Shown here: positions 8,874 to 26,549 of the stretch, piece by piece | Position numbering within the stretch: the stretch's first letter is position 1 | How the letters are laid out: the number at the start of each line of letters is the position of its first letter | Origin: a virus | Length of the DNA stretch: 27,806 nt | IMG/VR virus record: IMGVR_UViG_3300007609_000075 | Span: 1 to 27,806 of that record | Reading direction: 5' to 3' (one strand) | Made by a program: the position numbers and the translations under genes | Notes under the pieces: model-generated | Seen by the model: only the letters and a program-made list of their open reading frames with translations | What the model was told of the DNA's origin: nothing | Database searches by the model: none

Positions 8874-8999
8874 TTAGGCGTAATTAGCAAACACTAAAGC
8901 CATTATGGTAATTATTAAAATAGCTATATAAGAAAAGTCACCACCACCTTTATTCCAAGTTGTTTGACTAGTAGTTGTTCTAGGTCTTTTTTTGCTCAT
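8874..8999 (-). CDS. Small single-pass membrane protein, 41 residues
   Basis: A short ORF starting MSKKRPRTTTSQTTWNKGGG, followed by the hydrophobic span YIAILIITIMALVFANYA at the C-terminus. Its ATG overlaps the stop of the GT7-like gene as ATGA, and its stop lies seven bases before the chosen terminase ATG, so it fits tightly between two real genes. The basic N-terminus predicts N-in orientation with a C-terminal anchor. Function unknown. A membrane-anchored partner for the adjacent glycosyltransferases or a lysis-related peptide are both possible but unsupported. Confidence 0.55.
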   Translation of the reverse strand: MSKKRPRTTTSQTTWNKGGGDFSYIAILIITIMALVFANYA

Positions 9000-9640
9000 A
9001 TCGAAACAGTAACATTCAATACACCTTTATCTAATTCCTCTTGATTGACCAATTCAAACCGAAGCGTGTTAATACCATCCTTACTTGTGTCGTACCAATT
9101 AGCGAATCTTTTTCCATTCTTCGCGTGTAGTTTCTTCTGCTCTTTTTGTTCCAATGCGTGTTCGTGCGATAATGATTGGAACGGATTGGATTCGACTCTT
9201 GTTACCTTAACATCTGCTTCTTGGCAACGTTTAAGCATATCGTCATCTTCTGCACCCCAACCCCAATACTCGTTTGAGTAACCATTAGTTCGTTGGAACG
9301 CATCTGCTGAAAATACAGTAACACCACCAAAGTATTCATCGTAAGGCATCTTTCCACCGAATTGAGTTGCAGCAGAAGCAAGATGAACCGCATCACCTAG
9401 TTCGTACTTGGTGAACTTGGTAGGAATCATATCAACATCATGCGTTATTACATGAGTAGCACCTTGTTGGAAAGAAACAACCGAACCTACATTAAGTAAT
9501 TTCGCTCTGTTGAATGGTTTACCTTGTTCTTGTTCTACAATTAGAACCGGGTAATTTACCTTTAACTTGCGTAAAGCTCTAATCAATACAGGTAGGTGTT
9601 CTTTTCTATCTCGGTATGGTACGACTATGAATGGGTTCAT
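8996..9640 (-). CDS. Beta-1,4-galactosyltransferase-like protein (GT7 family)
   Basis: A 214-residue protein carrying the whole motif series of animal beta-1,4-galactosyltransferases: VPYRDR near the N-terminus, FNRAKLLNVG (43-52), the metal-binding DVD (68-70), YFGGVTVFS (103-111), NGYSNEYWGWGAEDDD (119-134), a His-containing segment (SHEHALEQKE) at the position of the metal-ligand His, and DGINTLRFEL near the end. The enzymes transfer galactose or GalNAc from UDP-sugars to an acceptor sugar. Here there is no signal anchor or stem, so it is a cytosolic catalytic domain only. It lies in an ATGA-coupled accessory run with other glycosyltransferase-like genes. Donor and acceptor cannot be told from sequence; the Tyr/Leu/Ile position controlling Gal versus GalNAc needs alignment. 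Confidence 0.85.
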   Translation of the reverse strand: MNPFIVVPYRDRKEHLPVLIRALRKLKVNYPVLIVEQEQGKPFNRAKLLNVGSVVSFQQGATHVITHDVDMIPTKFTKYELGDAVHLASAATQFGGKMPYDEYFGGVTVFSADAFQRTNGYSNEYWGWGAEDDDMLKRCQEADVKVTRVESNPFQSLSHEHALEQKEQKKLHAKNGKRFANWYDTSKDGINTLRFELVNQEELDKGVLNVTVSI

Positions 9641-9963
9641 TCTTCAACTGTTCTCTTTTTCAATATTTCAACCAATTGTTCGTAGCTGTTCTCTTTCATT
9701 AGTTTATCCATGTAAAACCTATCGGCTTGCCTACACTTACCATTTGAAATTACATAAGGTCTTGGATAGCAGATTGACGGTGGATATCCATGCTCGAACA
9801 GGCCATATTCAATAACTAACCCATCCTTTTCATAAGCATTGAATAGATTTGTCATAGATGATAAGTTGGCATATCCATTTACTTTTTTCATCCGTTTTTT
9901 TCTAGTGTCAATGTGGTAACACTTAAAACCCTGCTCAATTAAATATTCTTCAAACTTTGTCAT
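9637..9963 (-). CDS. Conserved-looking hypothetical protein, 108 residues
   Basis: The protein begins TKFEEYLIEQGFKCYHID, then NGYANLSSMTNLFNAYEKDG and FEHGYPPSICYPRP, and ends with a helical ENSYEQLVEILKKR. It resembles small proteins I associate with Bacteroidota phages and mobile elements (an 'SSMTNL...GL.E.G.PPT' pattern), with no known function. It overlaps both neighbours by four bases and so is translated with the glycosyltransferase genes. No signal peptide or membrane span is seen. No enzymatic motif is recognisable. Confidence 0.7.
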   Translation of the reverse strand: MTKFEEYLIEQGFKCYHIDTRKKRMKKVNGYANLSSMTNLFNAYEKDGLVIEYGLFEHGYPPSICYPRPYVISNGKCRQADRFYMDKLMKENSYEQLVEILKKRTVEE

Positions 9964-10631
9964 CTCTGCTTTGCTATTAATGATTCCTTAAATCGTTCGT
10001 CAATTCGTTTATTCTGCTCTTCGTTGGTTGTGTATTCACGAGAATACCAAGTATGTATTGCAAAAGGTCTGTTCTTGTACTTGATGATAGTGCTGATTCC
10101 ATCCTCATGTAAATCACCATGCAACCAAAGTGGTTCTCCGTACTCGAATAACCAGTTGAAAAAACCATTGAACGGCTCCCACATTGACTTTTCATATTCG
10201 GGTATGAAGTCTGGTTTTCTGTCATTCATGCTAGGTCGAAATCCGAAGTCTCGAACGTCCTCCAATCGTTCCAAATTAAAAGGAATCGAACTTTTAATCC
10301 AATCCGAAGCAAACAGATTGAAGAACGGATTCATTACAGCCCAAGATATGTTGTTCCTTCCAGATAAGCATCCACCATCTGAAATACCTGCATGAGTGTA
10401 CGTTCCTTCTCGGAAGTCCTTGATAAGCTGATTCAGAACCGATTCATCCGTAATAAAACAATCTATATCAATGTTCATGGCTACTTCATCACCATGCGAA
10501 ACAACCCATTCCAAGTAGTCTGCTGCGTGAGTCCAATGATTGAAACCTTCTCCTTTGATGACTTCATAAGGACAAAGCGATTGCATCCTGTCAAATAGAA
10601 CTGAATTGTTGTATCTAGTGTATGCTTTCAC
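9960..10631 (-). CDS. Glycosyltransferase-like protein with DxD motif
   Basis: A 223-residue protein with a nucleotide-sugar-transferase look. The strand DEVAMNIDIDCFI carries a DxD (Asp55-Ile-Asp57) of the GT-A type, which normally holds the divalent metal and UDP-sugar. Downstream are many aromatic residues (SMWEPFNGFFNWLFEY) and a late HTWYSREY segment. I cannot place it in a numbered GT family. Its four-base overlaps with the methyltransferase upstream and the 108-residue gene downstream, and the nearby GT7 and GT2 proteins, support a role in the same glycan-building set. The call is inference from the DxD motif and context. Confidence 0.5.
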   Translation of the reverse strand: MKAYTRYNNSVLFDRMQSLCPYEVIKGEGFNHWTHAADYLEWVVSHGDEVAMNIDIDCFITDESVLNQLIKDFREGTYTHAGISDGGCLSGRNNISWAVMNPFFNLFASDWIKSSIPFNLERLEDVRDFGFRPSMNDRKPDFIPEYEKSMWEPFNGFFNWLFEYGEPLWLHGDLHEDGISTIIKYKNRPFAIHTWYSREYTTNEEQNKRIDERFKESLIAKQR

Positions 10632-11344
10632 TTCGCTTTTGTTTTGTCAAATACATAAATACTGTTCTTGAACCACGGCAGGTCAGCTCCTGCAATATCG
10701 CGCAGTTCTTGACTAAGGTCTTGCTTGAAAGAGAAACCTAGCTTCTCAATGGTCGGAATGACGTAATTCGCATTTCGTTCGTTCACATGACCGCAACCAC
10801 CTTGTCCTTCAATACCCCAAGACAGAATCAATCTACCATTACAAGCGTTCTTGATGTTTGCTAGGACTTTCTTTTCTAGTTTAGCAGGTATGTGTTCCAT
10901 AACCTCTAAGCAAAGCACAGAACCTCGTTTGACTCCTTTTATCTGCTTGGTAATATCCTGCTTCTTAATGAACTCAGGCGCATCTTTCAAAGGCTGACCT
11001 TCATAGCCTTGAACCTTGTATCGGAAATTCTTGAGTCGTTTAATGTACTCTCCATTACCGCATCCAAGGTCTATCACCATTTTATTTGCAGGAAGCACGT
11101 TAGGTAATCTCCGAGCAAGTCGGTAAGATGTCTTGTGTTCTTTTTCGGATTGCTCTTTAGTGAATATTCCGTTTTCGTTTATCTGATCCATGTATTCGAT
11201 TTTTGATTCGTGTAATGTGTAAGTGTCTAACCTATCTTCATCAGCGTACATTGAGATTGATAGGTTTCCTTTAGTGTAAGTCTCTCCAAGTAGTTCAAAA
11301 CCTGCTTGAATTAGGTTTCTGTGGTTGATTCTAGTTTTTGGCAT
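10628..11344 (-). CDS. Class I SAM-dependent methyltransferase
   Basis: A 238-residue protein with motif I VIDLGCGNGEYIKR (residues 90-103), the SAM-binding glycine loop, an acidic motif II position (GYEGQP), and CLEVMEHIP (about 145-153), typical of class I small-molecule or sugar methyltransferases. The first 85 residues form a separate N-terminal extension containing LIQAGFELLGETYTKGNLSISMY. The substrate is not evident. In a run with several glycosyltransferases, methylation of a sugar or of a glycan end is a reasonable inference. No DNA-methylase catalytic motif (DPPY, PCQ) is seen, so it is unlikely to be a base methylase. Confidence 0.82.
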   Translation of the reverse strand: MPKTRINHRNLIQAGFELLGETYTKGNLSISMYADEDRLDTYTLHESKIEYMDQINENGIFTKEQSEKEHKTSYRLARRLPNVLPANKMVIDLGCGNGEYIKRLKNFRYKVQGYEGQPLKDAPEFIKKQDITKQIKGVKRGSVLCLEVMEHIPAKLEKKVLANIKNACNGRLILSWGIEGQGGCGHVNERNANYVIPTIEKLGFSFKQDLSQELRDIAGADLPWFKNSIYVFDKTKAK

Positions 11345-11351
11345 CTTTGAT

Positions 11352-11699
11352 TTACTTTATGGTTAGTTCTTGACCCGTCAAAGCAAAGTAGAGGTTTTGG
11401 AGTTGGTGTGCATATTTAATTACCGCCATTCCATGCTTATATTGCATCCAATAACCTCTTTCATCTACTTTTACCCTAAATCCGTCTTTTGTTTGGTAAG
11501 CCGTAGGTATTGACATTTCTATTTTCTCAAAACCGAAACGCTCCAACCATTCTTGTGTTAGTGGTATTGCTATACAGTACTTATCAATATATCCAGTTTC
11601 TGTTTCTATCTGCAAATCATTTAAGATTGCCGTTACTACAGTAACCCCATCATTAGGCTGTTCTACAAAATTCCCAATACGTAGTTCGTTTACTCTCAT
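11352..11699 (-). CDS. Hypothetical protein of a family common in Bacteroidota phages, 115 residues
   Basis: The protein opens MRVNELRIGNFVEQ and closes HQLQNLYFALTGQELTI, with IPLTQEWLERFGFEK in the middle. This start and end pattern (RxNELRIGN ... PLTEEWLxxFGF ... HQLQNLYFALTGEEL) is one I recognise from many uncharacterised proteins of Bacteroidota genomes, phages and mobile elements. Its role is unknown. It overlaps the upstream GT2 gene by ATGA and precedes the methyltransferase by seven bases, so it belongs to the accessory operon. It is a useful marker of the host phylum. Confidence 0.78.
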   Translation of the reverse strand: MRVNELRIGNFVEQPNDGVTVVTAILNDLQIETETGYIDKYCIAIPLTQEWLERFGFEKIEMSIPTAYQTKDGFRVKVDERGYWMQYKHGMAVIKYAHQLQNLYFALTGQELTIK

Positions 11700-12367
11700 C
11701 CTCTGATTCCTCTTTTGTTACCAATGTGTTTTACAAATCCGTTTCCTTTGATTATGGCTGAAACAAAACCATGTTCCACCATGTACTTTCCAATCCTCAT
11801 TTCAGATACCCAAGGTTGTTTCGGGTAGAACTTACTGATTGATGAGTAAGGACCATGCTGAAGGTAATCACCCATTCTTCTCAATCCAGGATTGAATGAG
11901 AAACCATGCCATTTGTGATTATGGTTCTTGTGCATGATGTAGTATTCAGCTAAATTAGTTGATCGCAAAGCATCATAATGTGGATGTCCATTGGTGTCTT
12001 TTTCAGACCGAATCCAAACCTGCTGAACGGTTGGATTTGACTTGAGTATTGATAGGCTTTTCTCAATGAATCCTTCTTCGTAGAACTCCCAATCTTCTTC
12101 AAGATGAAAAATGTAACGAGAAGCAATCTGCGAATAAGCAAGGTCGATTGATTCTATTTGACCTAATCGTTCCGTATTGTATTGGAATGTTACCCCTTGA
12201 AACGAGTCTGATAGATGGTCGTTACATCCTACCTTTCCCGAATCATCTATCACTAAGAAGTCCTCAATCGGATAGGTGTTGAATTTAAAGAAGCTGTGTA
12301 ATGTTCTCTCTAATAGGTCTGGCCGATTGAAACTCGTGCAGACCACCGATACTGTGTCTTTGTTCAT
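11696..12367 (-). CDS. GT2-type glycosyltransferase
   Basis: A 223-residue protein with a GT-A fold start: VSVVCTSFNRPDLLERTLHSFF, then FLVIDDSG (nucleotide-binding Asp pair), and FHLEEDWEFYEEGFI where EED takes the place of the usual DxD metal site. The C-terminal part is rich in Trp, His and Tyr (HKWHGFSFNPG) and ends KHIGNKRG. It would transfer a sugar from an activated donor; donor and acceptor are unknown. It is the first gene after a 69-base leader with inverted repeats (12368-12436) and is coupled by ATGA to the next gene. No membrane span or signal peptide. Confidence 0.82.
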   Translation of the reverse strand: MNKDTVSVVCTSFNRPDLLERTLHSFFKFNTYPIEDFLVIDDSGKVGCNDHLSDSFQGVTFQYNTERLGQIESIDLAYSQIASRYIFHLEEDWEFYEEGFIEKSLSILKSNPTVQQVWIRSEKDTNGHPHYDALRSTNLAEYYIMHKNHNHKWHGFSFNPGLRRMGDYLQHGPYSSISKFYPKQPWVSEMRIGKYMVEHGFVSAIIKGNGFVKHIGNKRGIRG

Positions 12368-12405
12368 TTAGTGTGTTTTAGCGCCCTTTTGGGCTGATTT
12401 CTCAA

Positions 12406-12424
12406 TTCGCGAATCGCGATTTGC
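12406..12424. repeat. Adjacent TCGCGA-containing palindromes upstream of the GT2 gene
   Basis: TTCGCGAA (12406-12413, perfect 8-base palindrome) overlaps a 16-base near-palindrome at 12409-12424, GCGAATCGCGATTTGC, in which only one base pair departs from symmetry. A further small GCCC-TTTT-GGGC hairpin lies at 12383-12394, closer to the GT2 start. Together they occupy the 69-base gap between the MazG-like stop and the GT2 start. The G+C-rich palindromes contrast with the A/T-rich surroundings and could be a protein-binding operator. No TAnnTTTG box is present in the gap. Confidence 0.45.
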
Positions 12425-12436
12425 AATAATAGTGCG

Positions 12437-12664
12437 TTATTCCGCATCTTTCGAGAGTATTTCAAGCAAGGTGTTGCCTTTTAACTCAATCTGTTTCAAC
12501 TTCTCTAAATACAGAATCAGATCCATTGCTTCTTCTTGAGCGTGGTTTATCCATTCTAGCTTTGTCAGGTTGTTCTTTTCTAAGGTAGTGCCGTACTTTT
12601 TAATTCCGACTTCTGATCGTTCCTTGAACTTATCTCGTACTGCTTCAACTATTGGGTCTTTCAT
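12437..12664 (-). CDS. MazG-like nucleotide pyrophosphohydrolase-type small protein
   Basis: A 75-residue, mostly helical protein with KFKERSEVGIKKYGTTLE, then a helix LEWINHAQEEAMDLILYLEKLK. The HAQEEAMD segment (Glu44-Glu45...Asp48) resembles the EExxD metal-binding motif of single-domain MazG-like and dUTPase-type all-alpha NTP pyrophosphatases, common in phages. Such enzymes clear unwanted nucleotides or lower (p)ppGpp signals. Only one of the expected metal motifs is clear, so catalytic activity is uncertain. Its ATG overlaps the stop of the 56-residue membrane protein (ATGA). Confidence 0.5.
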   Translation of the reverse strand: MKDPIVEAVRDKFKERSEVGIKKYGTTLEKNNLTKLEWINHAQEEAMDLILYLEKLKQIELKGNTLLEILSKDAE

Positions 12665-12831
12665 ATCAATCCGATGATTTCGCAGAACCCCAAGAAAGCT
12701 ATGATTCTCAATGCAATTACAAAAAGAGAAGCCGCGATACCTGTTCCGCTTTTCTGAATCAGTTCATTTCTTAAATCTGACAACGAGCCAAATAATGATA
12801 AACCAAGCATGACTAAAATAAATACCTTCAT
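12661..12831 (-). CDS. Small two-span membrane protein, 56 residues
   Basis: A short ORF starting MKVFILVMLGLSLFGSLSD, then a polar linker RNELIQKSGTG, and a second hydrophobic stretch IAASLFVIALRIIAFLGFCEIIGLI. It could be two transmembrane helices, or a signal peptide followed by one helix. It is the first gene of the leftward block, 83 bases from the divergent plus-strand gene, and its stop is ATGA-coupled to the MazG-like gene. Family unknown. Its hydrophobicity pattern and coupling are the evidence that it is real. Confidence 0.55.
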   Translation of the reverse strand: MKVFILVMLGLSLFGSLSDLRNELIQKSGTGIAASLFVIALRIIAFLGFCEIIGLI

Positions 12832-12843
12832 AATTTTGATGTT

Positions 12844-12851
12844 TAAGTTTG
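12844..12851 (+). promoter_or_regulatory. TAAGTTTG box in the divergent promoter region
   Basis: TAAGTTTG fits TAnnTTTG on the plus strand, 63 bases before the first rightward gene (12915). A start point just downstream would place the inverted repeat at 12860-12890 at the beginning of the transcript. The -33 region has no convincing TTG. No matching box is seen for the leftward genes in this 83-base gap. Confidence 0.4.
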
Positions 12852-12859
12852 TTTCTGAC

Positions 12860-12890
12860 CGCTAAGTAAAGAATAATTACTTACTTAGCG
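12860..12890. repeat. Perfect 10-base inverted repeat between divergent operons
   Basis: CGCTAAGTAA (12860-12869) is repeated in inverse as TTACTTAGCG (12881-12890) around an 11-base A/T-rich spacer. It lies in the 83-base gap between the leftward block (first ATG 12831) and the rightward block (first ATG 12915). The roughly 21-base centre-to-centre spacing of the arms, two helical turns, suits a dimeric DNA-binding regulator. It could instead form a 5' leader hairpin in rightward RNA. No T tract follows immediately, so a terminator is unlikely. Confidence 0.55.
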
Positions 12891-12914
12891 AAAACTTTTT
12901 AAAAGAAACGAGCG

Positions 12915-13115
12915 ATGGAAGAAGATGAATTGGTCAAGGCTTTAAAGAAACAAGCATTGACTTACAAAGGTCGAAACAACAATAAGGAGTTACTAGATGA
13001 GATCACTGATGATTTCACTAAGATATTTGAGGATTTCGGCATAACAGATGGTGTTCCTTTGGTTACTTTTAGAGGTAGTTCGGTTCATGTAGAACGCATT
13101 GCTAAACCCAAGTAA
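12915..13115 (+). CDS. Hypothetical protein, 66 residues
   Basis: A small charged protein: an N-terminal helix EEDELVKALKKQALTYKG, then KELLDEITDDFTKIFEDFG, and a short beta-like tail VPLVTFRGSSVHVERI. No family recognised. It is the first gene of the rightward block, only two bases before the glycosyltransferase start, so the two are probably co-translated. The ATG is preceded by the purine-rich AAAAGAAACGAGCG. The rest of the track in this strand supports coding here: no competing long ORF lies opposite it. Confidence 0.55.
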   Translation: MEEDELVKALKKQALTYKGRNNNKELLDEITDDFTKIFEDFGITDGVPLVTFRGSSVHVERIAKPK

Positions 13116-13117
13116 TA

Positions 13118-13666
13118 ATGAACATAATCTGCATCACAGGAAAACGAGGTTGTGGAGATGCCTTGAGTGAATTTACCGAGAAATCACATCTGCCATTCAA
13201 CTTTATGGCTTCTCCTGCTAACTACTCACAACCCGTTAGGCATGGTATCAAGTTGGCTCACCAACACGCATTGAACGTAGCTAAGAAGAACGGAATAGAC
13301 CAATCCATAATAGTTGAGGACGATGTGGAACTGACCTCTACTCGTAGCTTGGATTACTTTATTGAATCAGCTAAAGTTGCTCGTGAATGTGAATATGACA
13401 TCATTGTTGGTGGAGCGCATCATTACGAACGAACCAAGCGCGGAGCAAAGAAACTATCGGGTATGCACTTTTACATGGTGCTTAATCCTGATGTGGACTT
13501 CGCAGATTGTCCTAAGTCGGAACACATTGATAATTGGGTTGGTCGGAACTATAAGGTATGGGTCTGTTCGCCTATGATCGCAATACAACGTCCAGGTTGG
13601 TCTGAACACCGAAAGATTGATGTGGATTATTCAGAATTATTCGGGAAGTATGAGGTATTGAGATGA
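13118..13666 (+). CDS. GT25-like glycosyltransferase
   Basis: A 182-residue protein resembling the LPS glycosyltransferase family GT25 in outline: a strand MNIICITGKRG, a region with RHGIKLAHQHALNVAKKNGI before SIIVEDDVEL (EDDV at 67-70, the family's acidic metal site), then a late GRNYKVWVCSPMIAIQRPGWSEH with the typical 'V..P.i.iQ...S.H' ending. GT25 enzymes add galactose or other sugars to LPS cores or, in animals, to collagen hydroxylysine. Acceptor here unknown. It overlaps the methyltransferase-like gene by ATGA, so the two are coupled. No signal or membrane span. Confidence 0.75.
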   Translation: MNIICITGKRGCGDALSEFTEKSHLPFNFMASPANYSQPVRHGIKLAHQHALNVAKKNGIDQSIIVEDDVELTSTRSLDYFIESAKVARECEYDIIVGGAHHYERTKRGAKKLSGMHFYMVLNPDVDFADCPKSEHIDNWVGRNYKVWVCSPMIAIQRPGWSEHRKIDVDYSELFGKYEVLR

Positions 13667-14322
13667 GCTTAAATGTATTAGAATTATTCGCGGGAAGCAG
13701 GTCTTTCGGAAAAGAAGCGGAGAAAGTAGGTATGAACGTTTTTTCGGTGGATTGGGAGCCGTTTGATAATATTGATTTATGTATTGATGTTGAACAAATG
13801 CAGCTTAATGACATTCCATTCATTCCAGACGTTATTTGGGCTTCGCCAGATTGCAAAACTTACAGTATTGCAGCTTGTAGCACTCACAGAATAAACAGCA
13901 TTGAACCTAAGTCAGATTATGCTAATAAATGCGACTCTGTAAACCAACATTTCATATCTCTAATAAAATCTTGGTTAAAATTAAATCCCACAATGGTTTT
14001 TTTTATAGAAAATCCAAGAGGTATGCTTCGTAAAATGCCATGGATGCAAGAGTTTAAAAGGCACACAATATGGTATTGTAAATATGGAGATGACAGGGCA
14101 AAACCGACAGATGTTTTTACAAATAGTGAAAATTGGATTCCAAGACCGCAATGTAAAAACGGTAACAGAGATTGTCATCATCAGCCAGCTCCGAGAGGTA
14201 GTAGAACGGGGACTCAAGGGAGAAAAGGAAGTTACGAACGGTCCATTATACCATCCGAACTATGCAAAGAAGTATTACTTAGCGTTGTAGATAGTGAAAG
14301 ACAATTACTCATGCAAATCTGA
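13663..14322 (+). CDS. Compact C5-cytosine methyltransferase-like protein
   Basis: A 219-residue protein with C5-MTase motifs: motif I VLELFAGSRSFGKEA (5-19), VDWEP for the SAM ribose site, motif IV WASPDCKTYS (59-68) with the likely catalytic Cys64, motif VI FIENPRG (114-120) with ENP where ENV is usual, a motif VIII-like WYCKYGDDRAKPT, and a motif X-like IIPSELCKEVL near the end. Full-length C5 MTases exceed 300 residues and have a target recognition domain between motifs VIII and IX; only a Cys/His-bearing stretch (PRPQCKNGNRDCHHQ) lies there. It could methylate phage DNA against host restriction, or use another pyrimidine. Coupled by ATGA to the GT25-like gene. Confidence 0.78.
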   Translation: MSLNVLELFAGSRSFGKEAEKVGMNVFSVDWEPFDNIDLCIDVEQMQLNDIPFIPDVIWASPDCKTYSIAACSTHRINSIEPKSDYANKCDSVNQHFISLIKSWLKLNPTMVFFIENPRGMLRKMPWMQEFKRHTIWYCKYGDDRAKPTDVFTNSENWIPRPQCKNGNRDCHHQPAPRGSRTGTQGRKGSYERSIIPSELCKEVLLSVVDSERQLLMQI

Positions 14323-14354: not shown

Positions 14355-15224
14355 ATGTACGCACAACTAGGAGATATTATTTTTGAAGGATTGTACGGTC
14401 CAAAGTCATTTGAGCAGACCGAATCTGTTTCCTTACCACAGCATAGTCATATCAACCGTAGACCGAAACAACAGTTTACGGGCATCGACCTAAGTACGGT
14501 GAAAATCAAGATAGGTCTTAACAACTCGTTCATTGATGTTGAAGGTGCGATTGAGCAATTCCGCAGATACCGTAATTCAGCAACACATCTCAAGTACATT
14601 ACAGGTGCCGGTTCTGTAATAGGAACATTCGTAATTAAAAAAACAAAGACAAATCTGACCCGAACGGACCGACAAGGTAATATCGTCCAAGCAGAGTTAG
14701 AGCATGAATTGGTTGAACTAAGCTATTCCAATCCAAGGTTGGATTCAGTACGTATAGCTTTAGCAAACTCTAAGAACAGACCTCAAGTGTTTGAGATTCC
14801 TGTTAGACCGATTGCACCTACTCTAGCTGTTTCTGCCGCTTTGGATGTGGTTGACACTCGCGCTGCTGCTTCTGTAAGTCAAAACCTGTTGGATGGTTAC
14901 GTTCTTGCGCCTGATGAAGCTGAAAGTCGCGTAAACCAAGCGAGAGAGCGTTTTGAAACGGCAAAGCAACACATGGCCGATGCTGCTGCAAAGGTTCAGC
15001 AAGCGGAGGATGTGGCTGTTCAAGCTCAAGGTTACGTTAATAATATGTACACAGCAGTTCAGAACGCTCAGACCGTAATTGATTACATTGATTCATTTGA
15101 CCCTGCTGACCCTGTTGGGTCTTTAGCTGGAATTAACGATGCAAACAATCAGTTCATGTCTAGTCTGTCTGTTGTTTCAACTACATCTACACCACTAGCT
15201 GCTTGGACAGGAGCAAGAAGATAA
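14355..15224 (+). CDS. Tail protein gpU (P2-like) with helical C-terminal extension
   Basis: A 289-residue protein whose first 140 residues fit P2 gpU: YAQLGDIIFEGLYGPKSFEQTE, then INRRPKQQFTGIDLSTVKIKIGLN, and GSVIGTFVIKKTKTNLTRTDRQGNIVQAELEHELVEL. GpU acts in late tail assembly, probably at the tail end or baseplate hub. P2 gpU is about 160 residues; here residues 190-260 add a long amphipathic helix (VNQARERFETAKQHMADAAAKVQQAEDVAVQAQ) that may form a coiled coil. It is followed three bases later by gpX and then gpD, as a tail-completion set on the strand opposite to the other tail genes. Confidence 0.87.
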   Translation: MYAQLGDIIFEGLYGPKSFEQTESVSLPQHSHINRRPKQQFTGIDLSTVKIKIGLNNSFIDVEGAIEQFRRYRNSATHLKYITGAGSVIGTFVIKKTKTNLTRTDRQGNIVQAELEHELVELSYSNPRLDSVRIALANSKNRPQVFEIPVRPIAPTLAVSAALDVVDTRAAASVSQNLLDGYVLAPDEAESRVNQARERFETAKQHMADAAAKVQQAEDVAVQAQGYVNNMYTAVQNAQTVIDYIDSFDPADPVGSLAGINDANNQFMSSLSVVSTTSTPLAAWTGARR

Positions 15225-15227
15225 CTC

Positions 15228-15452
15228 ATGGCAACCTACACAAGACACATAACGAAAGATGGAGATAGATGGGATGAACTCGCATACCGCTATTTTGGAG
15301 ATTCAATGAATATCAAGCCATTGATAGATGCAAACCCGTTCATACCTATCCGACCTGAGATAGATGGTGGAATCGAACTTTATATTCCTATCTTCGACCC
15401 TCAACCATTACAAGACTTCAATAATTTACCACCCTGGAAAAGACCGCAGTAG
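15228..15452 (+). CDS. Tail protein gpX (LysM-like)
   Basis: A 74-residue protein of the P2 gpX tail family. It starts ATYTRHITKDGDRWDELAYRYFGD and continues with MNIKPLIDANPFIP and a terminal GGIELYIPIF. This is a LysM-like fold of about 60 residues, found in contractile-tail hub or tube-end proteins (P2 gpX, T4 gp53-related modules), where it may contact peptidoglycan or neighbouring hub proteins. It sits between gpU and gpD with gaps of three and zero bases, a normal order for this family. Confidence 0.9.
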   Translation: MATYTRHITKDGDRWDELAYRYFGDSMNIKPLIDANPFIPIRPEIDGGIELYIPIFDPQPLQDFNNLPPWKRPQ

Positions 15453-16646
15453 ATGGCATCAGTTCGCGCCCCGTATTTCAAGGTAATCTACGATTCGGTT
15501 GATATTACAGAGGAAATCAGTAAAGACGTAATTGAGATAACCTATTCGGATTCAACCGAGAATGAAGCTGCTGAATTGACCATATTGGTTGATGATATGT
15601 TCAGCAAGTGGAAGAACGAATGGATTGTAAATACAGGTGTTTCCATCGAAGCTGAATTTGGTTGGCAAGAGGATTCAGCTTTGGATTGCGGTAAATTTGA
15701 GGTTGATGAAATCCACTACTCTGGAGATTACGGAAGAGGCGATACGGTTGAGATCAGATGCCTTGCTATTTCCGAGAACTCTGAATTGAGAACTGAAAGA
15801 TCTGAAATATACACCGAACAAACAATTCAACAGATAATTGATAAAGTTGCAGAAAGGAACAACTTAACATTAGCTGACCCGAACATAAACATAGATGGAA
15901 CGGTTGAAACAAATCCTTTCGTTCTACCTCAACAAGATGTTATTTATCGGAATAGGGTTTTAGGGCTTTTCTTTTCCAGGATAGTTCAAGACCGAGAAGA
16001 TGACCTTTGTTTTCTTGATAGGTTACTAAGTCAATACGGTATATCTGTTGTTTTTCACAATGATTCGATATTTCTTACCGTTGAGGTTTCAGACATTGTA
16101 AGCAGAAACATTAGCGAAAGAGTTGGTTATTTTCTTAGAGAAGATATACCAGAAGGAATGATAGAAATAGATGGAGAATTGACAGACTTAAATAGCATAC
16201 CATCAATTAAATCATATAGACTGAAGAATTGTGCCGCTAACACCATAAATGGAGTCACGCTAAAGTATCACGACCCATACACAGATGCTGAATTGATTTA
16301 CGATGCTGATTTAGGAAACATACCTCAATCAAGTCAAATCAACCCGCTTGGTGTTGAGTATGAAATAGTAAACAGAAAAGCTATTGAGTACGGTTACGTT
16401 GAAAACGAACAACAAGCAGAGATAGTCGCAAAGGCTAAACTATTTGACATCATATCCAAACAAGTTGAAGGAGATATGGAATTGGAAGGTCAACCGAACG
16501 TTATTGCAGGAACAGCTATTGAAGTAAGCGGTATCGGTAAACTTAGTGGAAGATACTACGTGAATCAATCAAGACATCGAATCAATCGAGCTTCGGGTTA
16601 CACTACGAACATCCAAGTTCAGATGTTAGCAGGAGAATCTACTTAA
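15453..16646 (+). CDS. Baseplate hub protein gpD (late control D family)
   Basis: A 397-residue protein of the P2 gpD/T4 gp27 hub family. The N-terminus (APYFKVIYDSVDITEEISKDVIEITYSDST, then AAELTILVDDMFSKW) is the usual hub barrel start. The centre has an extended helix (EQTIQQIIDKVAERNNLTL), and the C-terminus has AIEVSGIGKLSGRYYVNQSRHRINRASGYTTNIQVQ, a second barrel with the family ending. The hub connects the tail tube to the spike. It begins immediately after the gpX stop. Its last codons overlap by eight bases the 3' end of the convergent small Tfa-like gene. Confidence 0.9.
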   Translation: MASVRAPYFKVIYDSVDITEEISKDVIEITYSDSTENEAAELTILVDDMFSKWKNEWIVNTGVSIEAEFGWQEDSALDCGKFEVDEIHYSGDYGRGDTVEIRCLAISENSELRTERSEIYTEQTIQQIIDKVAERNNLTLADPNINIDGTVETNPFVLPQQDVIYRNRVLGLFFSRIVQDREDDLCFLDRLLSQYGISVVFHNDSIFLTVEVSDIVSRNISERVGYFLREDIPEGMIEIDGELTDLNSIPSIKSYRLKNCAANTINGVTLKYHDPYTDAELIYDADLGNIPQSSQINPLGVEYEIVNRKAIEYGYVENEQQAEIVAKAKLFDIISKQVEGDMELEGQPNVIAGTAIEVSGIGKLSGRYYVNQSRHRINRASGYTTNIQVQMLAGEST

Positions 16647-21822: not shown

Positions 21823-22304
21823 TACAATGGTGTTGATGTTGTTTCTGGAGTTGTAATTTGACCTGTTGTTGGTGTTGTATGTGTATGAGTAGTAAGGTTC
21901 ACCGAACCTGCGCTAACCTCAACTCCAGCATCAACCGACCCCGAAACGCTAAGATCACCCGTAATGGTGACACCTCCACTAGCTTGAATTTCCATTTGAC
22001 CGTTTGCTCGGTTAAATACAATTTTGTTATTCGCATTGAATACAACAGAAACAATATCATTACCCGATTCGGATGGTTGTAGGTCACGAGAGTAAATTGC
22101 GCCTAAAATTACCCCTGTTATACCGTTATCCGACATCATGCAAGCTACGTGTTCCTGAATGTCAAAAGTATGGAAGTAGCTGTTACCACTTGTTCCATTG
22201 TGAATGGTAGGTAGCCAATCCGTTACAACTTCATCCTCACCAAAGGAAACCTTGCAAAGCCCTTTGTCTGCATCAATATCCGATATTCGACCAAAACGTA
22301 ACAC
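21822..22304 (-). CDS. Baseplate spike protein gpV
   Basis: A 160-residue P2 gpV-like spike. The N-terminal OB-fold segment has FGRISDIDADKGLCKVSFGEDEVVTDWLP and the typical EHVACMMSDNGITGVILGAIYS. A beta-helical part follows (VTITGDLSVSGSVDAGVEVSAGSV). The tip carries THTH (HxH, near residues 138-141), which in P2 and phi92 spikes coordinates an iron ion at the sharp end. The trimeric spike is the first part to cross the outer membrane. It is coupled by one-base overlaps to tape measure and gpW/gp25. Confidence 0.9.
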   Translation of the reverse strand: MLRFGRISDIDADKGLCKVSFGEDEVVTDWLPTIHNGTSGNSYFHTFDIQEHVACMMSDNGITGVILGAIYSRDLQPSESGNDIVSVVFNANNKIVFNRANGQMEIQASGGVTITGDLSVSGSVDAGVEVSAGSVNLTTHTHTTPTTGQITTPETTSTPL

Positions 22305-24070
22305 TATGCGAAACTTCTCCTTTGTTGTTGTCTCATCTGCTCTTGAACCATTCTAGCTATCTCATCTTTATGTACCGCAAGTTGTGATAGGAAAGATTCG
22401 CGCTCTTGTTCCGTTGCGCCACTACCTAAATTGACCGTTGGGTTGTAGTTGATTGCTACTTGACCGCCTTGAACACCAGAAACAGGTGAAACTTGACCAG
22501 ATATACCTGATGAAGCCGTTTGGTTCGGGTTGTTCTGAGTGCTAATGGTCTGAGTTGTTGCAATAAGGTCATTCGTAACCCTTGTTGTCTTTAAACTTGC
22601 TTCAAAATTCTTAGCCCATTCAAAACCTGTTAGCTTGGAGATAAAACCCATCAATTGCTGCATAGGGTATAAAATAGAATCCCACATAGCGTTTCCAACA
22701 GCTTTTATACCTGCCAATAAACCATTCTGTCCGAACGCTTCGGTTATTCTGCTCCAATGCTCTCGTATGGACATAAAAGCATTGACAATCCATCCAACGG
22801 GTCCCATCAGAAGCATCATGGATGCTCCGAACTCTTTCCATTTGTAGATTGCTATTCCTACGTATGCAACTAGAGCGGTAATAGCGACAATCACTACTCC
22901 TATCGGATTGGCTAACATCATAGCGTTTAAAGCAGCCCATGCCGTTGTAGCAGATCCGAGAGATGGAACTAAAGTCGTTACAATAGCGGTTGACATTACC
23001 CAAAATCCCTTTATGGATTGCCAGACTCCAAGTGTAAGCAGTTTCAAACTAAGCAATGAAACACGAACTGCTTTATTCCAAAAAATGAACTTTAGTATGT
23101 CTAAAGTTTTAGCTGATGTTCCTGCTACAATAGCTGTATTTAGCAGGAACTGAGCTGTTGCAAAAGCAAAAGCTGTTGCAGTAACAACCGTAAACACAGC
23201 AACCAATCCCATCACCGCTTTCGTTATGAATTGGTGTGATTTGAACCAATCCGCCATGCTTCGCAAATGAGGTATCAGCCATTCCCCGAAAATCTTTAAA
23301 GTAGGTAGTAAAGACTCACCAAATACAGCAGCAAAACGAGCTACTTCATCAGTCAGTCTCACCCAAAGACCTTCACCTGTGCTTGCTAGTTTTCCAAGTC
23401 CGTTCTCAAACCTTCCACCCGCATCTGTTGATTGCTCTAACGCTTTCTGTAATAGCGTAAACGTGATTTCACCATCCTCTGCCATTTGAAACACATCTGC
23501 TTGCGCTCCTAATATATCTTGAAGAATACTTACAATAGGAACACCAGCGTTAATCAACTGACGAAGGTCACGGGTCATCATCTTACCCTCCTGACGAGCT
23601 TGACCATAGGCAACAATAGCATTATCCAATTGTCCATTGGTCAATGCTGTAATATCACCAAGCATCTTAACTGAATCCGTTGCTTCTTTAGCCGAACTAC
23701 CATAACCAATCATCATTGTAGTAACTTTCGCTACTTCTGACAATTGTAATGGTGTATCAGCAGCTAAACGGATAAGCTCGTTGTACGTCCTAGTTCCCTC
23801 TTGATTTGAACCAGTCAACGCAATCATGCTAACCCTTAAACGTTCGTAGTTAGCAGCCATCTTCAACGGATAGGCTAATGCAGCAGCCCCTGCCGCAGCA
23901 GCCATCCCCGAATCAAACATCTGCTCCCTTGCAGCAGCAGCCCTCTTCTGAGCTTTCGCTTGCATCTGACCCATAGCGGTGTTAGCCCTATTGGTAGCAG
24001 CAGAAACGACATTCGACATCTTATCGACTGCCGTAAGTAAAAGCGTTAAACGAAGATTCTTATCAGCCAT
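22304..24070 (-). CDS. Tape measure protein
   Basis: A 588-residue tail tape measure. The N-terminus has a helix with NVVSAATNRANTAMGQMQAKAQKRAAAAREQMF, then a TP901/PhageMin-type core (YERLRVSMIALTGSNQ, SEVAKVTTMMIGYGSSAKEATDSVKMLGDITALTNG). Hydrophobic spans lie near residues 283-318, 340-372, 385-410 and 415-432, usual in tape measures that insert into the inner membrane. At about 0.15 nm per residue the tail would be roughly 85-90 nm, if uncut. The ATG overlaps the stop of the chaperone frameshift extension by eight bases, the normal position for this gene after the E/E'-type pair. Confidence 0.9.
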   Translation of the reverse strand: MADKNLRLTLLLTAVDKMSNVVSAATNRANTAMGQMQAKAQKRAAAAREQMFDSGMAAAAGAAALAYPLKMAANYERLRVSMIALTGSNQEGTRTYNELIRLAADTPLQLSEVAKVTTMMIGYGSSAKEATDSVKMLGDITALTNGQLDNAIVAYGQARQEGKMMTRDLRQLINAGVPIVSILQDILGAQADVFQMAEDGEITFTLLQKALEQSTDAGGRFENGLGKLASTGEGLWVRLTDEVARFAAVFGESLLPTLKIFGEWLIPHLRSMADWFKSHQFITKAVMGLVAVFTVVTATAFAFATAQFLLNTAIVAGTSAKTLDILKFIFWNKAVRVSLLSLKLLTLGVWQSIKGFWVMSTAIVTTLVPSLGSATTAWAALNAMMLANPIGVVIVAITALVAYVGIAIYKWKEFGASMMLLMGPVGWIVNAFMSIREHWSRITEAFGQNGLLAGIKAVGNAMWDSILYPMQQLMGFISKLTGFEWAKNFEASLKTTRVTNDLIATTQTISTQNNPNQTASSGISGQVSPVSGVQGGQVAINYNPTVNLGSGATEQERESFLSQLAVHKDEIARMVQEQMRQQQRRSFA

Positions 24071-24514
24071 TCGGTTCTGGTGGTGGAGAATTTAAGTAGT
24101 TATGCAAAGATACCGCTTCTTCGTACCAATCCCTAACCTCATCGGCAGGTCGTTCCTCTATCTCGAAAATTGAGGTCGAACTGAAATGAGCGAGGAACAT
24201 CATTTGCTCTCTAGTAAGTCCGACCCCACTAACTTTCCCTGCAAGAACATGAAGTCAGTTCCGGGCATTGATTCCAAAATATCTTCAGCAGCCAACTTCT
24301 CACCATTAAACGTGCAAGTTTCAGCTATCATAGCCGCAATCATCATATTCTGATCAACCGAATCTCCATTGGTCGCAATCTCTTGTGCCAACCTTGCTTT
24401 CTTCGCTGAGAAGAACGTCATTACAACACTCAACCCCGAATCGGGTAGTGTGAACTCCTTACTTGCTGTTTTCTCCTTTAGCAACTCTAATACTGTTTTC
24501 TTGTCTTTTTTCAT
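24063..24514 (-). CDS. Frameshifted tail assembly chaperone (GT/E+E'-like, ~150 residues)
   Basis: Read through a -1 shift at the GGGAAAG heptamer, the 104-residue chaperone is extended. After residue 94 (Lys) the -1 frame continues with 56 codons: VSGVGLTREQMMFLAHFSS, a central IFEIEERPADEVRDWYEEAV, then LHNYLNSPPPEPNG, ending at TGA 24063-24065, overlapping the tape measure start. This mirrors lambda G-GT and P2 E-E', in which the minor longer product joins the tape measure to tube subunits. The extension has no start codon of its own at the right place except internal ATGs, which supports production by frameshifting. The proportion shifted cannot be read from sequence. Confidence 0.85.
24105..24112 (-). 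promoter_or_regulatory. TATCTTTG box before the tape measure gene
   Basis: Minus strand TATCTTTGCATAACTA, ending 34 bases before the tape measure ATG. It matches TAnnTTTG and the TTTGCA of the other boxes, but lies inside the chaperone frameshift extension (Val-Ser-Leu codons), so it may be chance. No -33 TTG at 17-23 bases. Confidence 0.35.
24200..24514 (-). CDS. Tail assembly chaperone (gpG/gpE-like, unshifted)
   Basis: A 104-residue protein immediately upstream of the tape measure, the normal place for tail chaperones. It has KKTVLELLKEKTASKEFTLP, SGLSVVMTFFSAKKARLAQE, and MMIAAMIAETCTFNGEKLAAEDILE, a compact pattern of a beta segment and helices as in phage tail assembly chaperones. It coats the tape measure during tube assembly and is absent from mature virions in known systems. 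It stops at TGA 24200-24202 unless ribosomes slip at GGGAAAG (24233-24239), 10 codons before the stop. It has its own TAACTTTG box and follows a terminator, so it is probably a separate transcription unit from sheath and tube. Confidence 0.85.
   Translation of the reverse strand: MKKDKKTVLELLKEKTASKEFTLPDSGLSVVMTFFSAKKARLAQEIATNGDSVDQNMMIAAMIAETCTFNGEKLAAEDILESMPGTDFMFLQGKLVGSDLLESK
24233..24239 (-). other. -1 ribosomal slippery heptamer GGGAAAG
   Basis: On the minus strand codons CAG GGA AAG give the X XXY YYZ heptamer G GGA AAG. Both tRNAs can re-pair in the -1 frame as GGG AAA. This is the same heptamer used in lambda gene G. Its frame relation is exact: the -1 frame is open from here to TGA at 24063 and encodes the expected GT-like extension. 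Confidence 0.85.
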
Positions 24515-24622: not shown

Positions 24623-25141
24623 TTATATACCTAAGTTAGCTCGGAATGTTGCTAGTTTGTCAACTCCATCAATCTGATAGATGTTGTTCAATACGTCAAT
24701 CTTGTAGATTTCTTCACCGCCTATCTCCAATCGGAAATAGTCGATTTTGAACTTGGTTGTAGCTTCAACATTCTCATGCTGCTTGAAGTTACCACCAGGG
24801 ACATTCATTGGTCTGCCTCTGAAATCAGCCACATAGCTAGATTCCGAAGTTCTACCACTTGAATTATACTCTTCAAGACTTGAGCGAACTTGAAAAGTAA
24901 AGCTAGTGTAAATATCAGTTACCAACTTCTGAACGTCAGGGAGAATCGTTGTCCACATCATCTCCAATTCCATCGCTTCGATTCCCGTTGGAGTATTGAT
25001 CACTCCGAACATTCCTAAAGCGTTATGTTCCGCTTGTTTCGAGGTTACGTCAGGAAGATTTACCTCCTTGACCTTTCCTACATAGTTGTTACCCTCAAGG
25101 TAAACATTCGCGTTGGTTAATTTTCTTACGTCAGCAGCCAT
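24623..25141 (-). CDS. Tail tube protein (P2 FII-like)
   Basis: A 172-residue contractile-tail tube protein. It has RKLTNANVYLEGNNYVGKVKEVNLPDVTSKQAEHNALGMFGVINTPTGIEAMELEMMWTTI-like order of the Phage_tube family: an N-terminal strand, a loop with 'P.....E......G..G.....G...me', then a long middle and the end FKIDYFRLEIGGEEIYKIDVLNNIYQIDGVD. Hexamers of it stack to the tube that carries DNA. It starts two bases after the sheath stop and ends before the terminator, so sheath and tube form one transcript, fitting their need for equal, high amounts. Confidence 0.92.
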   Translation of the reverse strand: MAADVRKLTNANVYLEGNNYVGKVKEVNLPDVTSKQAEHNALGMFGVINTPTGIEAMELEMMWTTILPDVQKLVTDIYTSFTFQVRSSLEEYNSSGRTSESSYVADFRGRPMNVPGGNFKQHENVEATTKFKIDYFRLEIGGEEIYKIDVLNNIYQIDGVDKLATFRANLGI

Positions 25142-25142
25142 T

Positions 25143-26549
25143 TTAGCTTAGTTGTGTTAGTAGGTTGATGTCAAATGTTGACTTGAGAGTTATTCTCTCA
25201 GCAGGTACTGCGCCCGCATAAACTCGTCTGAATACGATCTTACCTGCTGCTAGGTCAACCGCAGGGTTGTCGTTAGCATCGTAGTAAACATTGGAACCGG
25301 GAAGTAACGCTCCTGCTTGAATCAAGCTGTCAATGTATGCGTTAGCCGTAGCTTTGATCGCATCAATAGTTGCTTGAACAAGTGGTCGGTCAATGTACTG
25401 AATCAATGTCTTTTCAATCGTTTCAGAAACAATATCATCCAAATACTGAACCGAGATAAAGTTGTCAGGAGCAGTATTGCTTGGGTATGCAGCACTTCGG
25501 TTTCCGTAAGTTCTATACGAACCCGCAACTTTTACAACCGAGAAAATACCTGCCGCATTAAGCAACTGAACATCTCCGCTTGCATCGTTCGGTCCCGTTC
25601 CCGCCATCGGATATTCTGGTTTCACAATCACATTGGAAACCTTATTCGATGGAGAAACCCAATACCCTTCAGTTCGTGCAATTCGTGAATTGATACCTGC
25701 CGCAACTGCTGATAGTGGATAATCAGCCAATACACCCAAGTAATCGTAATCTTGAATCCAAGGCCCACATGGAATAACTCGTGTTGAAACTGTTGCAGAT
25801 GAATTACCTGCTGTTGTTCTGTTCGAGATAAGGTCAGCCCGTGAAGTAGCGTTCTCGTCATCAATGTAGCATCTAGCTCGGAAAGTATCACATTGGCTTT
25901 CCATCTCGTTTGCTACTGCATCAATAGAACTGTACTCAGGACAAACAAAAATCTTCGGTGCGAATCCGAAACTGTCATACGCTTCATCAAACAGTTTGAA
26001 TCCTGTCTTTGGAGATGCCGTTCCAACAAAATCAGCAGCAGCTAATCCGGAAACATCAAACGTATCGTAAGTAACGTAAATCGTATCACCTTCAGCAATA
26101 TCACCTGATGGGATAATGCTTACAACTCCATATTCCGAAATAGTGTAGTCCGTTCCAGCCACAAACGTACTCCAAGGAGAACCACCGGCTACAACGGGTG
26201 TAGCCGCCTCACTCAGAACAGGAAAGTCTAAAGTAGCTTTTCCGTTAGTGATAGTTATAGCTTCTTCCGTAATGGTGGTTGAAACCGAAGATGGGTCGTA
26301 AACGTTAACTACGATTACTTTCGCAGCAGGGTCCTCTCTACGAATGTGATCCAATGACCTGTTAATGGACATTGGGTATAAATTACCTCCGAACTGCTCG
26401 TCATCTTGAGCCGAAGCGCATAATTTCATTGTATTCACATCGCCTTGAGGCGCAACACCTACAAGTCCGATAACCGCAGTCTCAACTGCTGCTGCGGGTT
26501 GGGTTAGTCCAGGTACATTGACCGTTTCGACTCCGTGAAAAAAACTCAT
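25143..26549 (-). CDS. Contractile tail sheath protein (P2 FI-like)
   Basis: A 468-residue phage sheath protein. Start FFHGVETVNVPGLTQPAAAVETAVIGLVG is the family's N-terminal pattern ('HGV...ei......p....st.vigliG'). A variable protruding domain follows, and the conserved C-terminal part has YWVSPSNKVSNVI, RTYGNRSAAYPS, DDIVSETIEKTLIQYIDRP and the ending GAVPAERITLKSTFDINLL. Sheath subunits contract to drive the tube through the envelope. A TAACTTTG box lies 23 bases upstream in a 146-base gap, making this the first gene of a sheath-tube unit. Length is typical. Confidence 0.94.
   Translation of the reverse strand: MSFFHGVETVNVPGLTQPAAAVETAVIGLVGVAPQGDVNTMKLCASAQDDEQFGGNLYPMSINRSLDHIRREDPAAKVIVVNVYDPSSVSTTITEEAITITNGKATLDFPVLSEAATPVVAGGSPWSTFVAGTDYTISEYGVVSIIPSGDIAEGDTIYVTYDTFDVSGLAAADFVGTASPKTGFKLFDEAYDSFGFAPKIFVCPEYSSIDAVANEMESQCDTFRARCYIDDENATSRADLISNRTTAGNSSATVSTRVIPCGPWIQDYDYLGVLADYPLSAVAAGINSRIARTEGYWVSPSNKVSNVIVKPEYPMAGTGPNDASGDVQLLNAAGIFSVVKVAGSYRTYGNRSAAYPSNTAPDNFISVQYLDDIVSETIEKTLIQYIDRPLVQATIDAIKATANAYIDSLIQAGALLPGSNVYYDANDNPAVDLAAGKIVFRRVYAGAVPAERITLKSTFDINLLTQLS

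Follow-up and report, generated by a model that had tools for sequence, protein, structure and literature searches.

What does the DNA at positions 24063-24199 encode, in the gap that ORF calling leaves between a small open reading frame and the tape measure gene of virus record IMGVR_UViG_3300007609_000075? The window, i.e. the whole stretch of DNA that was analysed, is this entire record (27.8 kb). The structural genes around the gap were assigned as follows:

25143-26549, minus strand: tail sheath protein (PF04984, E 3e-9; phrog_23, E 2e-64)
24623-25141, minus strand: tail tube protein FII (PF04985, E 5e-48)
22304-24070, minus strand: tape measure protein, 588 aa (PF20155 TMP_3, E 4e-25)

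We observed from the ORFs and profile matches that the gene order is sheath-tube-chaperone/extension-tape measure, with the chaperone ORF sitting between the tube and tape measure genes as in the P2 E/E+E' type. Pfam and PHROGs also placed a sheath initiator/gp25 and baseplate J, GPD and GpU proteins in the window. These neighbours, along with the sheath, FII tube and tape measure genes, identify the module as a contractile tail of the P2 type.

A terminator-like hairpin with a T-rich tail (24591-24573, minus strand) lies between the tube and chaperone genes, and could perhaps set their expression ratio. The GpU-like, gpX-like and GPD-like tail genes (14355-16646) lie on the plus strand and the other tail genes on the minus strand, unlike P2, where the U, X and D-type genes lie within one FETUD operon. 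The block between the terminase and tail genes (8996-14322) contains ORFs that we take, by eye from their translations, to be glycosyltransferase-like and methyltransferase-like.

The end of the chaperone ORF, together with the gap, contains the following features:

24200-24514, minus strand: 0-frame tail assembly chaperone (gpE / gpG analogue), 104 aa, from the ORF, the PF10109 matches of its relatives and the fold
24233-24239, minus strand: slippery heptamer G.GGA.AAG, from the sequence; identical in the relatives L002/L003 and L017/L018
24066-24233, minus strand: extension in the -1 frame (analogue of E'/T), 56 codons long and closed by the TGA at 24065-24063, from the open frame, pN/pS, the PF06528 family and P2 E'

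The minus-strand codons around the site read TTC TTG CAG GGA AAG TTA GTG. GGGAAAG (24239-24233) is thus in the X.XXY.YYZ phase suited to -1 slippage and lies near the end of the chaperone ORF (24514-24200), whose 0-frame C-terminus is FLQ GK LVGSDLLESK. When the -1 frame is entered at 24233, it translates as VSGVGLTREQMMFLAHFSSTSIFEIEERPADEVRDWYEEAVSLHNYLNSPPPEPNG up to a TGA that overlaps the beginning of the tape measure ORF (24070-22304), and the fusion junction is Lys94-Val95. An earlier note on this DNA had described the heptamer within CAG GGA AAG, the 56 open codons ending over the tape measure start, and this same junction, and we found each of them to be correct. The GGGAAAG taken alone is weak evidence for a frameshift. 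When the last 20 chaperone codons were recoded synonymously, GGGAAAG appeared in phase in 6% of the trials, and any in-phase X.XXY.YYZ in 12%.

We further compared the site with relatives obtained by tube-protein searches: L002/L003 (85-86% tube identity) and L017/L018 (61%). Both of these independent lineages have GGGAAAG at the equivalent position and have retained the -1 relation together with an extension, which spans 52-56 codons of the -1 frame. Synonymous differences between the window and these relatives were near-saturated (0.60-0.90 per site). Past the 0-frame stop, pN/pS was 0.29-0.40 in the -1 frame as against 1.0-2.0 in the other two frames, both of which contain stops. The window and L002 were 69% identical over the fusion and 65% over the extension. 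These substitution patterns show that the -1 extension is under purifying selection and hence coding; across the alignments, the conservation of the GGGAAAG site lifts it above coincidence. Since the heptamer is present in two other lineages, purifying selection is seen in the -1 frame only, and the wider family has a phase preference (below), we conclude that the gap 24063-24199 is coding, and that it is the missed extension proposed by the earlier note. The note had suggested aligning the -1 frame and heptamer among relatives, and both were conserved in L002/L003 and L017/L018; we also looked for homologues with a broken -1 frame and for lack of heptamer conservation, and the claim withstood both.

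To identify the two parts, we relied on the relatives found with the tube protein. Neither the window chaperone nor the window extension alone gave a significant match in Pfam or PHROGs, direct searches of viral contigs and phage records with the chaperone only gave no match, and nothing relevant came from a sequence search of the PDB. Among the chaperone relatives, 18/32 matched PF10109 Phage_TAC_7, while PF06528 Phage_P2_GpE was matched by 7/28 extension relatives (best E 3.7e-6). The extension family profile aligned to P2 E' with an hhalign probability of 92.5%; the chaperone family compared directly with P2 gpE by hhalign was not significant. The AlphaFold model of the chaperone (pLDDT 86) had the HK97 tail assembly chaperone 2ob9 as its top PDB match (probability 0.99, E 0.026, TM 0.52), and several tail assembly chaperones were among its matches to viral models. 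The extension was modelled as three helices (pLDDT 91). Since the window chaperone has no significant TAC match, its assignment to the TAC family PF10109 rests on its relatives and the HK97 fold match; the homology of the extension to PF06528 likewise comes through family members and the profile, not through the window's own sequence. The GT/E'-like character that had been described for the extension is thus well supported.

We also surveyed the regions that follow FII-type tube genes in viral contigs and genomes, some 150 loci in all. The extension profile recovered 87 of them (54 non-redundant clusters) in which a chaperone ORF and an extension stand in -1 relation. Heptamer matches in L042, L046, L059, L095, L120 and L127 were out-of-context chance matches and were kept out of this profile. 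After exclusion of the doubtful clusters L006 and L134, an in-phase heptamer lay within the overlap in 39/52 clusters, as against 10 and 12 clusters for the other two phases. Heptamer-bearing loci served as seeds for the profile, so the share of clusters with a heptamer is inflated. All of the GGGAAAG copies in the survey (11/11) were in phase. A canonical in-phase heptamer was absent from the overlap in 13/52 clusters, and so the heptamer is not universal in the family. The last in-phase heptamer across the 54 clusters was GGGAAAG in 10, AAATTTT in 9, TTTTTTG in 4 and GGGAAAC in 3, followed by others. As GGGAAAG is among the commonest heptamers at FII-tube loci, its presence in a P2-type module is ordinary. 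The earlier note had presented the lambda heptamer as a peculiarity for a P2-type gene set, and this part of it did not hold, TTTTTTG being just one alternative. The frameshift itself is a well-known, textbook mechanism, and the implied novelty of GGGAAAG in a P2-type set is unsupported. These heptamers and others are interchangeable within one FII-tube contractile-tail family, and heptamer identity therefore says little on lineage.

Other junctions were seen in the survey. The L043 cluster (9 loci) and L044 have a -1 extension without a canonical heptamer, and the junction has CTTTTTGTGTAA, which suggests slippage on a non-canonical run. A sister group (L006, L007, L009, L010, L042, L068, L086, L134 and L160, the last being Pseudomonas phage Bise) has a GpE-like ORF in the +1 (= -2) frame directly after the chaperone stop, e.g. 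GGC GGC TGA G. No canonical heptamer and no junction start codon was seen in these nine loci, and their stop codon is a candidate +1 or -2 recoding site. L056, L065, L069 and L072, unlike these nine, have an ATG at the junction.

A -1 slip at a site such as GGGAAAG yields a minor fusion product. From the anatomy, the phase, the conservation of heptamer, arrangement and coding, and the family of the relatives, we infer the slippage, its efficiency and the functions of the products. Most ribosomes would stop at 24200 and make the 104-aa chaperone. In a minority, the tRNAs on GGA and AAG of G.GGA.AAG would slip back one base, re-pair on GGG/AAA and read on in the -1 frame. The resulting fusion would be 150 residues long and end in a GpE/E'-like helical domain of 56 residues. 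If the two products work as in lambda, the N-terminal part that they share would bind the tape measure protein, and tube protein would be brought in by the extension as the tail assembles. In lambda, the tape measure protein is bound by gpG and gpGT, and the tube subunit by T; in E. coli, ribosomes shift very readily on G_GGA_AAG, and the -1 frameshift in tail chaperone genes is widely conserved among long-tailed phages (PMC5009743). Taken together, the region very probably encodes a tail assembly chaperone pair of the P2 E/E+E' (lambda G/GT) type, made with a programmed -1 frameshift. The earlier claim of such a frameshift extending the chaperone is supported by the phase, conservation, selection and family survey.

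Two further elements downstream of the heptamer bear on how the extension is made:

24171-24228, minus strand: possible stimulatory stem of 12 bp, 5' arm 24228-24217 and 3' arm 24182-24171, from folding
24198-24203, minus strand: ATGATG in the -1 frame that shares bases with the 0-frame stop TGA (24202-24200), a possible termination-reinitiation start

The stem begins 4 nt past the heptamer (MFE -25.2 kcal/mol, z -2.4), and none of 500 synonymous recodings folded as stably. In the window phage this predicted stem may stimulate the frameshift. However, 9 bp of the helix are kept in L002 and the stem is absent in L018, so we do not claim it as conserved. It is unlikely that the window frameshift is stimulated by an unusually stable structure, unlike that of P2, with the ATGATG also yielding a third, free extension product.

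The extension could instead be, or be made alongside the frameshift as, a separate protein of 45-46 aa, by termination-reinitiation at the ATGATG. An NTGATG is found at the 0-frame stop in the window (ATGATG), in L002 (TTGATG) and in L017/L018 (GTGATG in L018), and ATGATG also occurs in L037 and L064; T4-like phages reportedly obtain proteins of this sort by another route than frameshifting, going by the title of Vladimirov et al. 2022. However, many extension-bearing members have no junction start codon (e.g. L024, L032, L036, L107, L113 and L119), so that a separate protein started there cannot account for the product across the family, whose common form must be the fusion. The conserved Met doubles as a conserved residue of the extension, and reinitiation leaves the heptamer conservation and phase preference unaccounted for. 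We consider this reading highly improbable as the main route, and a free extension would be a minor rival or by-product beside the fusion.

Another reading is that the -1 frame is open by chance, or is what is left of a decayed gene, and that the heptamer is a coincidence. It has the recoding frequencies in its favour but is refuted in practice by the comparative data, namely the -1 purifying selection between lineages with near-saturated synonymous sites, the identity of the extension to that of L002 and its homology to the GpE family, and we give it next to no weight.

As the reading of a programmed frameshift stands, annotating an E'-type extension requires joining two frames, and ORF calling alone omits it in the window. 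The note's remark that standard annotation misses the extension is a fair one, since one GenBank record of P2 also lists gpE alone and leaves the E' stretch unannotated. With the window, the conserved tail frameshift gains a further lineage, one that is divergent and of metagenomic origin.

When we compared the locus with P2 gpE/gpE+E', the position between the FII tube and tape measure genes, the -1 relation and the C-terminal GpE-type domain were alike, and the sizes were similar (104 / 150 aa in the window and 91 / 142 aa in P2; PMC3091744). The N-terminal parts, unlike these features, had no significant direct sequence match. P2 and its relatives shift at TTTTTTG without downstream structure (PMC3091744), whereas the window has GGGAAAG and a predicted downstream stem. 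With lambda gpG/gpGT, the window shares G.GGA.AAG (a widely shared heptamer and no marker of lineage), its phase, a site before the tape measure gene and a predicted minor extended product; the lambda tail, however, is non-contractile, and the window extension groups with the GpE-type family. L141-L149 differ from the window in having much longer 0-frame overlaps. The same heptamer, the same arrangement and a homologous extension, in divergent sequence, were found in FII-tube phages and prophages such as L107/L116 (Gastranaerophilales), L101 (Hydrogenophilales), L102/L144 (Neomegalonema) and L017/L018.
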